A stretch of 36,456 nt of DNA from Gemmatimonadota bacterium. Lineage in GTDB: Bacteria; Gemmatimonadota; Gemmatimonadetes; Palauibacterales; Palauibacteraceae. Shown piece by piece: positions 14,116-17,903 of this stretch. Each line of letters begins with the position of its first letter. Within the stretch, counting starts at the first letter, position 1. The notes under the pieces were generated by a model, which was not told the origin of the DNA, searched no databases, and saw only the letters and a program-made list of their open reading frames with translations. Location: NCBI GenBank assembly GCA_029861425.1, contig JAOTZH010000014.1:1-36456 (forward strand), read 5' to 3'. The position numbers were made by a program, and so were the translations under genes.

Positions 14116-14789
14116 GGCGGGCGTTCGCGCTGGTCGTCCTCGGCCTGCTTGCCGGGTGTGGCCCTACTGTGCCCGGCGGGGTGCCCGTGGCCGAGGAGCC
14201 CCGGCATCGCCTCGTGTCCGACCTCGACTTCGCGCAGGTCCTCGACATCCAGATCCTCGTGAGCGATACGACGCTCTTTCACACGCATGCCCGCCCCATC
14301 GCGTACACGTGCGTGAGCGGCTCCTCCATGGCCAGCCAGGTGGCCGGTGCCGATTGGGGTCAGCCGGGAACGCCGTGCGTACCCGGGGTCCCCTTCAGCG
14401 TGCCGGGGTACGCGGAGAGCCCCCTCACTCACCGGGTCGCGAACGACGGACTCGATCTCTTCCACCTGATCGCGGTACAGAGCCTGCGCGACGTTCCCGG
14501 ACCCACAGCCCTCGGCGCTCCGGGGGCGGGGAACACTGCGGTGGACAACGAGTGGTTTCGGGCACAGACGATCGAGCTCGCTCCCGGCCAGACCTCGCCG
14601 ACGCATCGGCACGAGGTCCCGACCCTCATGGTCCTGACGGCGGGCTCCGGAGCCGCCTCGACGCTCGAAGACGGCCGGCAGAACATGCTGATGGAGCAGG
14701 GGGCCTGGATGTGGCATCAACCGGGATCCCATACGCTCGCCGCCGTCGAGGGCGTCGCGCTGCGTGTCGTCGAGGTCGAGGTCAAATAG
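14112..14789 (+). CDS. Cupin-domain lipoprotein, 225 aa
   Basis: GTG 14112 shares GTGA with the previous stop and opens a lipoprotein signal (VRRAFALVVLGLLAGC, lipid Cys16). Two cupin-like halves can be seen. The first is near VLDIQILVSDTTLFHTHARPIAYTCVSG (split as ILVSDTTLFHTHARP with His-x-His). The second and clearer is FRAQTIELAPGQTSPTHRHEVPTLMVLT, with THRHE as the metal site, followed by EQGAWMWHQPGSHTL. It probably binds a metal in the periplasm. Whether it is an enzyme (a dioxygenase-like bicupin) or a binding protein cannot be told. The long frame upstream of 14112 covers the Cdd1 gene and is a shadow. Confidence 0.82.
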   Translation: MRRAFALVVLGLLAGCGPTVPGGVPVAEEPRHRLVSDLDFAQVLDIQILVSDTTLFHTHARPIAYTCVSGSSMASQVAGADWGQPGTPCVPGVPFSVPGYAESPLTHRVANDGLDLFHLIAVQSLRDVPGPTALGAPGAGNTAVDNEWFRAQTIELAPGQTSPTHRHEVPTLMVLTAGSGAASTLEDGRQNMLMEQGAWMWHQPGSHTLAAVEGVALRVVEVEVK

Positions 14790-14794
14790 AGCGA

Positions 14795-15133
14795 GTGGCC
14801 GAGCTGTCCGAGTCCTACGGGCGTATCTACCAGGCGGTTCGGCGGATCCCGAGGGGCCGGGTCGCGACCTACGGCCAGGTCGCCGCCATCGCCGGGCTCG
14901 GCCGCCACGCGCGACTCGTCGGGTACGCGCTCAACGCATGCGATGAGGAGCTCCCATGGCACAGAGTGATCAATGCGCGCGGCGAGATCAGCACGCGCTC
15001 GGACCCGTTCTACGAGGAGCTCCAGCGCGAGCGACTCGAAGGCGAGGGGGTCTCGTTCGACGACCGCGGACGCGTTTCGCTCGTACGCTTCCAATGGCAG
15101 ACCGCCGACCCTCTGGTTGATCCCGACTGGTAG
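14795..15133 (+). CDS. Alkyltransferase-like protein (ATL), MGMT homologue without the active Cys, 112 aa
   Basis: The fold is the DNA-binding domain of O6-methylguanine-DNA methyltransferase: YGRIYQAVRRIPRGRVATYGQVA, then GRHARLVGYALNAC and LPWHRVINARGEIS. In true methyltransferases the motif is PCHRV; here Trp55 replaces the Cys, as in E. coli and fission-yeast ATL proteins, which bind O6-alkylguanine, flip it out and hand it to nucleotide excision repair. It therefore should not transfer alkyl groups itself. GTG 14795 is the start closest to the family N-terminus; its ribosome site is weak and coupling to the cupin gene (5 bases upstream) is likely. The C-terminal tail is short. Confidence 0.9.
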   Translation: MAELSESYGRIYQAVRRIPRGRVATYGQVAAIAGLGRHARLVGYALNACDEELPWHRVINARGEISTRSDPFYEELQRERLEGEGVSFDDRGRVSLVRFQWQTADPLVDPDW

Positions 15134-15200
15134 CCTCAGGTTGGTGCCTCCCGGTGGCGAAGCCGGGGTCCCGGGAGCGTCGAATCTCCGAAGGGCGGCG

Positions 15201-15854
15201 ATGATGGGCATCAACGACGAGCTGACCAGCATCCGACAGTCCGGCGAGGCCAAGCGCCCGCCAGAGATCAACGAGCGCATCCAGCGCGCCACCGACGAGC
15301 TGCGGGCGTCCGGCATCCTCGATGGTGTCCCAGGGCCGGGAGATCGTGCGCCGCTGTTCGCCCGCCCGAACCTCTCGGGCGAGACCGTCCGTCTCTCCGC
15401 CCGGCTCAAGCGAGGTCCCGTACTCCTGAGCTTCTTCCGGGGTCGATGGTGACCGTATTGCCGCGTGGAGCAGGCTGCTCTGCAGGAATCGCTTCCCGAG
15501 ATCACGGCGAAGGGCGCCAGCGTCCTGACGCTGTCTCCGCAGCTCCCCGATTTCGCCCGCCTCTGGGCTGAAGAGGATGGGATCGAGTTCGACGTACTTC
15601 TCGACCTGGGGAATCAGGTGGCCCGCGACTACGGGCTGACGTTCGCTCTGTCGGACGACCTCCGCGACGTCTACGAGAGCTTCTTCAAGATCGACCTCGC
15701 CCGGTTCAACGGCGACGAGTCCTGGCAGCTGCCGGTGCCCGCGACCTTCGTGATCGACACGAACGGGAGGATCGTGTATGCGGGCGCTCACGCCGATTAC
15801 ACGGCGCGGCCGGAGCCCGCGGAAGCGGTGGCCGCGATCCCCACGAGCGACTGA
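15201..15854 (+). CDS. Probable selenoprotein: AhpC/TSA peroxiredoxin-like, Sec84 encoded by in-frame TGA at 15450-15452
   Basis: Two open stretches in the same frame, 15201-15449 and 15453-15854, are separated by a single TGA. Joined, they give one intact 217-residue AhpC/TSA-family protein: PGPGDRAPLF (about 45-54), GPVLLSFFRGRW (72-83), the TGA codon (84), PYCRVEQAALQESLPEI, VLTLSPQLPDFARL, then VPATFVIDTNGRIVYAGAHADYT. In this family RGxWCPYC holds the redox pair, so TGA replaces the attacking Cys and gives Sec84-Pro-Tyr-Cys87. ATG 15201 has AAGGG 5 bases upstream. A hairpin with a GGC loop lies 20 bases after the TGA. It would reduce peroxides or disulfides using thiols. The alternative is a nonsense mutation or sequencing error, but that would have to hit this codon by chance. 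Confidence 0.83.
15465..15483 (+). promoter_or_regulatory. Putative bacterial SECIS element
   Basis: GTGGAGCA (15465-15472) pairs with TGCTCTGC (15476-15483) around a three-base GGC loop. Six of the eight pairs are Watson-Crick and two are G-U. The loop begins 20 bases after the TGA and has G at its first two positions, which fits the bacterial SECIS pattern (small apical loop with an early G, some 16-37 bases downstream). The apex GCA-GGC-TGC resembles the GCA-GGUC-UGC apex I remember from the E. coli fdhF element. The bases are also coding. Confidence 0.6.
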
Positions 15855-15867
15855 GAGAGAGCGCCGG

Positions 15868-16185
15868 ATGACGGATCACAACGCCGAACAGATGGGCCAG
15901 GGCCGCGGCGGCATGCCTGCCGGGAGCCCGCAGGAGTACTGGCGTCGCAACATCCGTTACGTGGCGGTTTTGTTGGCCGTCTGGTTCGCCGTCTCCTACG
16001 GAGCGGGCATCCTGCTTGCCGACCGTCTCGACGCCTTCCGGATTCCGGGAACCGGATTCCCCGCCGGTTTCTGGTTCGCTCAGCAGGGCTCCATCTACGT
16101 GTTCGTCGTCCTGATCTTCGTCTACGTCTTCCTCATGAACCGTCTCGACCGCGAGTTCGAGGTCGACGAGGGTGACGACGAATGA
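15868..16185 (+). CDS. DUF4212 small membrane subunit of SSS symporter, 105 aa
   Basis: DUF4212 proteins sit beside ActP-like sodium:solute symporters and are thought to act as their small partner. After a hydrophilic, Gly-rich start comes YWRRNIRYVAVLLAVWFAVSYGAGILLAD (about 25-53), the hallmark first membrane segment. Then comes the GFPAGFWFAQQGSIYVFVVLIFVYVFLMNRLDREF pattern, given here in two parts: GFPAGFWFAQQG (about 64-75) and the second membrane segment to about 92. ATG 15868 follows a GAGAGAG run. Its stop overlaps the next gene in ATGA, consistent with coupled synthesis of the two parts. Confidence 0.93.
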   Translation: MTDHNAEQMGQGRGGMPAGSPQEYWRRNIRYVAVLLAVWFAVSYGAGILLADRLDAFRIPGTGFPAGFWFAQQGSIYVFVVLIFVYVFLMNRLDREFEVDEGDDE

Positions 16186-17903
16186 CGATTACCGCGTGGA
16201 CGTTCACGCTCGTCGCCCTGTCCTTCGCCCTCTACATCGGGATCGCGATCTGGTCCCGGGCCAGCTCGACCAGCGAGTTCTACGTTGCCGGAGCCGGCGT
16301 CCACCCGGTCGCCAACGGGATGGCGACGGCCGCCGACTGGATGTCGGCCGCGTCCTTCATCTCGATGGCCGGGATCATCTCGTTCCTCGGATACGACGGC
16401 TCGGTGTATCTCATGGGCTGGACGGGCGGGTATGTGCTCCTCGCGCTGCTCCTCGCCCCATACCTGCGGAAATTCGGCGCCTACACGGTCCCCGATTTCG
16501 TCGGCGACCGGTACTACTCGCAGCGGGCCCGGCGATTGGCCGTCGTGTGCGCGATCTTCGTGTCGTTCACGTACGTCGCGGGCCAGATGCGCGGCGTGGG
16601 CATCGTGTTCAGTCGTTTCCTCGAGGTCGACGTGACACTCGGCGTGCTGATCGGCATGGGGATCGTCTTCTTCTATGCGGTGCTCGGAGGAATGAAGGGG
16701 ATCACCTATACGCAGGTCGCCCAGTACTGCGTCCTGATCTTCGCCTACACGGTCCCGGCGATCTTCCTGTCGCTGCTGATCACCGGGAACCCGATCCCGC
16801 AGATGGGTTTCGGCGGCGCGGACCAGGAGACCGGTACGTACCTGCTCGACCGGTTGAACGGGCTCCATACCGAGCTCGGATTCGCTCCTTACACGTCGGG
16901 CACGAAGTCGACCCTGGACGTCTTCGCGATCACGGCGGCGCTCATGGTCGGGACCGCGGGGCTTCCCCACGTGATCATCCGGTTCTACACGGTACCGAAG
17001 GTCCGGGACGCCAGGATCAGCGCCGGCTGGGCGCTGGTGTTCATCGCGCTCCTCTACACGGCTGCGCCGGCGGTCGCCGTCTTCGCCCGCACCAACCTGA
17101 TCGACACGGTCTCGGAACAACCCTATGCCGAGATGCCCGACTGGTTCACGCAGTGGGAGTCCACGGGGCTGATCACGTTCGATGACGTGAACGGTGACGG
17201 GCTCGTCCAGTACGTCGGTCCGGCGGCCGCGGACGCGGGGGGAGCGCCGGTCGAGAACGAGCTGACGATCGATCGCGACATCATGGTCCTCGCGAACCCG
17301 GAGATCGCGCAGCTGCCGAACTGGGTCGTGGGTCTGGTGGCCGCCGGAGGGTTGGCGGCAGCCCTGTCGACGGCGGCCGGGCTGCTCCTCGTCGTGTCCA
17401 CCTCCATCAGTCATGATCTGCTGAAACGCGGCTTCCGTCCGGACATCACGGAGAGGGGCGAGCTCATCGCTGCCCGGGTCAGCGCCGCGGTCGCGGTCGT
17501 CGTGGCCGGCTATCTGGGGATCAACCCGCCCGGCTTCGTGGCGGAGGTCGTCGCGTTCGCGTTCGGTCTGGCGGCGTCGTCGTTCTTCCCGGTCATCATC
17601 CTCGGCGTCTTCTACAAGCGAATGAACCGCGAGGGGGCCATCTCCGGCATGGCGGTCGGAATCCTCTTCACGGCCGCGTACATCGTCTACTTCAAGTTCG
17701 TGAACCCCGCGGCGAACACGGCCGAGCACTGGTGGTTCGGTATCTCGCCTGAAGGAATCGGAGCCCTGGGGATGGTCCTGAATTTCGCGGTGGCGCTGAC
17801 TGTGGCACGGTTTACCCCCGAGCCGCCCGAACACATCGGTGAGCTCGTCGAGAGCATCCGGATCCCGCGCGGGTCCGGCGAGGCACACGAGATCGGCGCC
17901 TGA
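16182..17903 (+). CDS. Sodium:solute symporter (SSS family, VC2705/ActP-like), 573 aa
   Basis: The protein has about 13 hydrophobic segments and the family signatures FYVAGAGVHPVANGMATAADWMSAASFI (read as YVAGAGVHP, about 33-41, and NGMATAADWMSAASF, 45-59), YTVPDFVGDRYYS and VLGGMKGITYTQVAQY. An extended loop with DDVNGDGLVQYVG (about 329-341) is typical of the VC2705 subfamily, which pairs with DUF4212 proteins. The substrate is probably a short-chain monocarboxylate such as acetate, by family, but this is not visible directly. ATG 16182 shares ATGA with the DUF4212 gene. The protein ends with a charged C-terminal tail after the last membrane helix. Confidence 0.94.
   Translation: MTITAWTFTLVALSFALYIGIAIWSRASSTSEFYVAGAGVHPVANGMATAADWMSAASFISMAGIISFLGYDGSVYLMGWTGGYVLLALLLAPYLRKFGAYTVPDFVGDRYYSQRARRLAVVCAIFVSFTYVAGQMRGVGIVFSRFLEVDVTLGVLIGMGIVFFYAVLGGMKGITYTQVAQYCVLIFAYTVPAIFLSLLITGNPIPQMGFGGADQETGTYLLDRLNGLHTELGFAPYTSGTKSTLDVFAITAALMVGTAGLPHVIIRFYTVPKVRDARISAGWALVFIALLYTAAPAVAVFARTNLIDTVSEQPYAEMPDWFTQWESTGLITFDDVNGDGLVQYVGPAAADAGGAPVENELTIDRDIMVLANPEIAQLPNWVVGLVAAGGLAAALSTAAGLLLVVSTSISHDLLKRGFRPDITERGELIAARVSAAVAVVVAGYLGINPPGFVAEVVAFAFGLAASSFFPVIILGVFYKRMNREGAISGMAVGILFTAAYIVYFKFVNPAANTAEHWWFGISPEGIGALGMVLNFAVALTVARFTPEPPEHIGELVESIRIPRGSGEAHEIGA

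Follow-up and report, generated by a model that had tools for sequence, protein, structure and literature searches.

A conserved in-frame TGA marks a probable UxxC selenoprotein on a peroxiredoxin-type fold in Gemmatimonadota

Does a TGA in the middle of an otherwise open gene end translation, or does it specify selenocysteine (Sec, U)? The question is raised by a locus on the forward strand of a 36,456-nucleotide stretch of DNA (the window), contig JAOTZH010000014.1 (C214) from a Palauibacteraceae member of the Gemmatimonadota. The source assembly, GCA_029861425.1, is a draft whose 291 contigs total 3.85 Mb, with 90.1% completeness and 2.8% contamination. The frame at 15201-15851 holds 217 codons, the start codon having been picked by comparison with relatives, and its sole internal stop is the TGA at 15450-15452; a second TGA at 15852-15854 terminates the gene. 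An initial annotation of this DNA had proposed that the internal TGA replaces the first Cys of an RGxWCPYC motif and encodes Sec. The frame bears out this placement, at residue 84, and we are very confident that Sec is inserted there.

15201..15854, forward strand: selenoprotein gene, 217 amino acids plus a TGA stop, with an AhpC/TSA (peroxiredoxin-like, Prx-like) fold and an N-terminal helical extension at about residues 1-42 (from the frame, Pfam and alignment)
15450..15452, forward strand: in-frame TGA, U84 within RGRW-U-PYC (from the frame and conservation in relatives)

With C in place of U, the read-through protein matched PF00578 (AhpC-TSA) over residues 46-193 with an E value of 5e-27, exceeding the curated cut-off. 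The match runs across the TGA with the frame unbroken, in line with the earlier claim that both halves fit one family. Redoxin (PF08534) also matched, with an E value of 1.6e-18, and the SelL-related redox protein model NF040769 scored 43.2 bits, below its NCBIfam cut-off of 120. Plain open reading frame (ORF) calling breaks the gene into 14973-15452 and 15465-15854, a splitting that the initial annotation had foreseen. The protein alignment of the subfamily comprised 25 chosen sequences.

We then looked for relatives across 395 Gemmatimonadota genomes at E<=1e-20 and found them in 42. Forty had TGA at the identical codon, one had TGC, and one (L074, genome G322) was truncated by a contig end ahead of the codon. 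Proteins from the 39 TGA genomes other than our own were 36-72% identical to the window protein, and the TGC relative (L073, genome G245) is distant, at 31% identity. Two records of Gemmatimonadetes metagenome-assembled genomes, L019 (67%; Gemmatimonadetes bacterium SZUA-1190) and L020 (63%), also carry TGA; since its 66 bases from the TGA onward are identical to those of L033, one of the 40 (G118, same class), we took L019 to be the same gene. Querying the 395 genomes with the Cys copy at E<=1e-30 recovered nothing beyond G245 itself and a pair of TGA genes, and no close Cys relatives within the phylum.

Outside the phylum, 67 plasmid records of a Cys-containing "peroxiredoxin-like family protein" with RGxWCPYC were matched. 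The best was 46.7% identical over 97% of the protein; 10 were listed and seven genes compared, all with Cys at position 84. Together with the TGC of L073, these supply the Cys in relatives for which the initial annotation had suggested looking. A tree was built from 41 Sec and eight Cys rows and drew long-branch warnings. The Sec/Cys label needs two changes on it, and the well-supported branches of this 49-row tree do not contradict a single Sec origin. Two plasmid Cys copies (L086 and L088) group among four of the divergent copies L065-L071 at an open fork, and Sec and Cys may therefore have been exchanged more than once. The divergent W-U-PYC copies L065-L071 (36-46% identity) are themselves spread over several families of the class. 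The window copy falls apart from the copies of its own genus (L034, L036-L042, L045, L046 and L048-L050; 62-67% identity), with its placement unsettled in the tree.

Immediately 3' of the TGA lies a candidate selenocysteine insertion sequence (SECIS) hairpin, whose loop begins after 20 bases.

15468..15480, forward strand: core of a bacterial SECIS-type hairpin, GAGCA / GGC loop / TGCTC (from conservation and synonymous constraint)

We compared the 66 bases from the TGA onward at 43 loci with UPYC, the window copy (L032) included, two of which (L057 and L072) are contig pieces of a single genome, G266. These gave 38 distinct sequences; all 38 kept four core pairs and had G at both first loop positions. 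Synonymous conservation was scored on 39 rows, in which the window sequence took the place of L032 and from which L033, L057, L072, L073, L074 and the near-duplicate L064 were excluded. Codons 93, 92 and 90 ranked as the top three of the 169 scored. Ala93 is GCT and Glu90 is GAG in every one of the 39 rows, while over the rest of these genes GCT accounts for 11.4% of Ala codons. The codon at site 93 varied among the eight Cys relatives, and codons 90 and 93 both vary in the seven plasmid Cys genes. The position just 3' of the TGA and the G in a small apical loop fit the bacterial SECIS description in PMC1088965. Across the whole window, Rfam at the gathering threshold gave no matches, and no tRNA genes were found.

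The machinery for Sec insertion was sought in the same genome. A tRNA-Sec (selC) scored 79.7 bits and was called SeC with anticodon tca by ARAGORN on contig C287, and selD scored 243.1 bits. A selB match came in two pieces: profile positions 1-338 (311.9 bits) lie near the end of C30, and C287 opens with positions 530-579 (28.4 bits). The ends of these contigs agree at 18 of 19 bases, and a single selB split across the two is the likely explanation. The initial annotation had held that a complete genome without selA, selB, selC and selD would speak against Sec; here the assembly is a draft and does contain three of the four, full-length selA being the one not found. In the phylum, selA exceeded its cut-off in 280 of 395 genomes and reached E<=1e-40 in 282; we took these to be the same 395 genomes as in the search for relatives, since the handles agree. 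At E<=1e-40, 39 of the 40 genomes with the Sec form had selA, versus 243 of the 355 others (Fisher p 2.3e-5, uncorrected for kinship). Going by the 280 genomes over the cut-off, Sec use looks common in Gemmatimonadota.

A nonsense mutation in a pseudogene would also produce an in-frame stop and a gene split by standard calling. However, the same TGA recurs in 40 of 42 relatives, and the hairpin codons are synonymously constrained. Purifying selection also persists beyond the TGA: the median ratio of nonsynonymous to synonymous rates (dN/dS) was 0.13 downstream versus 0.21 upstream over 32 close pairs, which are non-independent and, through L019 and L033, include one counted twice. Such downstream codon conservation was another sign that the initial annotation had asked for. 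Alternatively, the TGA could be decoded as an ordinary amino acid under a changed code, or be read through by chance. Reading TGA as a residue does keep the frame open, an observation that carries no weight of its own, but the gene itself ends with TGA, as do several relatives, making genome-wide reassignment unlikely; moreover, a tRNA-Sec is present, and the homologues examined have Cys at residue 84. We regard a changed code or read-through as very improbable and a pseudogene as more improbable still.

Sec insertion, as first proposed for this locus, is thus favored by the conserved TGA, the hairpin, the presence of tRNA-Sec, selB and selD, the Cys homologues and the downstream selection. 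Along with the dependence among the dN/dS pairs, several observations count against it. The fifth hairpin pair is kept in only 31 of the 38 sequences, and the lower stem is unconserved. The RNA from 15445 to 15505 folds no more stably than shuffled sequences (z 0.86), and so we dropped folding energy as evidence and used conservation instead. The core pairs are near-invariant (one G-U for G-C), leaving no covariation, so that the case for the hairpin rests on synonymous constraint. Finally, the sole selA match in our draft assembly, at 31 bits, was below the cut-off. Because selA exceeded the cut-off in 16 of the 17 genomes of the genus, the window's own being the exception, its absence here is likely an assembly gap. 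A search for such a gap with a single selA flank from each of two relatives did not demonstrate it: the first flank gave two short matches of about 30 bases, and the second gave none.

What would Sec do in this protein? We aligned it by hidden Markov model (HMM) to solved structures, obtaining 33 matches, and examined the residue-level alignments of four.

15459..15461, forward strand: TGC codon of Cys87, the partner in the UxxC pair, aligned with the peroxidatic Cys of peroxiredoxins (from HMM alignment)
15738..15740, forward strand: codon of Pro180, weakly aligned with a Pro of ResA and with the peroxiredoxin Arg (from HMM alignment)

The best PDB profile match was ResA (4nmu, E 3.5e-16). 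U84 lines up with the first Cys in the ResA CxxC and with the Ser/Thr in the peroxiredoxin motif, and the peroxidatic Cys of ApTPx, 2ywn and BcpB lies opposite Cys87 in the alignments. The initial annotation had put Sec at the peroxidatic position; this did not hold, as U84 instead sits on the thioredoxin-like first Cys. The canonical peroxiredoxin active site consists of PxxxT/SxxC plus a conserved Arg, and the Pro, Thr/Ser and Arg all have roles in it. The window protein lacks this combination. Position 80, where a canonical peroxiredoxin has Pro, is Arg in all 39 rows, U84 replaces the Thr/Ser, and position 180, weakly aligned, is never Arg in the 39. The Pro of ResA that aligns with Pro180 is presumably its cis-Pro. 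These alignments point to a probable UxxC thiol:disulfide oxidoreductase built on the fold of a peroxiredoxin.

It is also possible that Sec is genuine and the protein is nevertheless a true peroxidase, in which Cys87 attacks peroxide and Sec84 resolves. The alignment of Cys87 with three peroxidatic cysteines and the closeness of the AhpE and Bcp folds favor such a peroxidase, but the peroxiredoxin Pro, Thr/Ser and Arg are not kept (weakly aligned position 180 being Pro, Thr, Ala or Ser), and we consider it unlikely. The oxidoreductase assignment has evidence against it as well. Pro180 was aligned through weak second stretches of 1.0, 2.6 and 9.8 bits, and among the 39 rows the residue at 180 is Thr 12 times, Ala twice and Ser once. 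The overall fold is nearer to the peroxidases AhpE and Bcp than to ResA, which ranks below them in one fold comparison and was absent among the 50 matches listed in another. On balance, we find the combined account, Sec insertion via the hairpin and a thioredoxin/ResA-like active site on a predicted peroxiredoxin fold, likely.

In the mechanism that we propose, Sec would be placed at residue 84 by SelB with Sec-tRNA(Sec), guided by the hairpin. U84, just ahead of the active-site helix of the predicted peroxiredoxin fold, would act as the nucleophile, and Cys87, in the first helix turn, would resolve the selenenyl-sulfide, with Pro180 predicted to sit opposite the pair. The activity would most likely be disulfide reduction, or else peroxide reduction through a selenenic acid, with recycling by thioredoxin or a similar reductant. 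The RGxWUPYC protein is almost exclusively Sec-form within Gemmatimonadota (40 Sec, one distant Cys and one truncated among the 42). With middling confidence, we suggest that Sec has become fixed and is not easily substituted by Cys, in a peroxiredoxin-fold active site turned thioredoxin-type, Sec having taken the place of the former Thr.

Published descriptions of Prx-like UxxC selenoproteins go back to the Sargasso Sea work (PMC1088965); 225 "Prx-like 1" UxxC sequences were reported in PMC2398784, and further examples appear in PMC5029168, PMC9312934 and PMC13188914. By the descriptions of published representatives, the window protein is an additional member of this known kind, and the initial annotation was right to see in it a further instance and not a class of its own. 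It shares PF00578 and UxxC with the Prx-like thiol:disulfide oxidoreductase selenoproteins (UxxC/UxxU) of PMC13188914 and PMC9312934 and, as far as descriptions alone allow the comparison, differs in forming an RGxWUPYC subfamily of Gemmatimonadota that has a helical extension at the N terminus and, in its C-terminal part, a DYTxRPEP stretch. The "Redoxin family protein" selenoprotein of the same two papers has UxxC in a redoxin-type domain and, by table entries alone, might be the same subfamily. The Cys-containing plasmid proteins differ in having Cys in place of Sec, with codons 90 and 93 free to vary. Selenocysteine peroxiredoxins share PF00578 but carry Sec in TxxU, whereas in the window protein Sec stands where they have T, and Cys where they have U. 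ResA has a similar CxxC active site but no Sec, and ranks below AhpE and Bcp by fold. Judged by title, none of the papers listed in literature searches was on Gemmatimonadetes selenoproteins, and the main-text wording of PMC13188914, PMC5029168 and PMC9312934 nowhere includes "Gemmatimonad". Neither the motif "WUPYC" nor the combination of peroxiredoxin-like, CXXC, TXXC and thioredoxin fold gave a literature match. The locus adds a well-supported selenoprotein subfamily in a phylum with widespread Sec machinery, of a type whose genes are split by plain ORF calling, and offers a natural test of the benefit of Sec at a thioredoxin-type position of a peroxiredoxin fold.

The gene upstream, also on the forward strand, ends at 15133 within an ORF at 14156-15133, its start being uncertain. 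It matches the O6-methylguanine methyltransferase DNA-binding domain and shows PWHRVI, with Trp where PCHR has what we take to be the alkyl-acceptor Cys; it is probably an alkyltransferase-like (Atl) protein. Two genes lie downstream.

15868-17903, forward strand: DUF4212 protein, then a sodium:solute symporter (from domain matches)

The DUF4212 and symporter genes also adjoin the selenoprotein gene in L042 (G089). Among 44 loci checked, most with about 1-1.5 kb of flank, neighbors in common with the window were found in L042 and L074 only, and we therefore make no operon argument.
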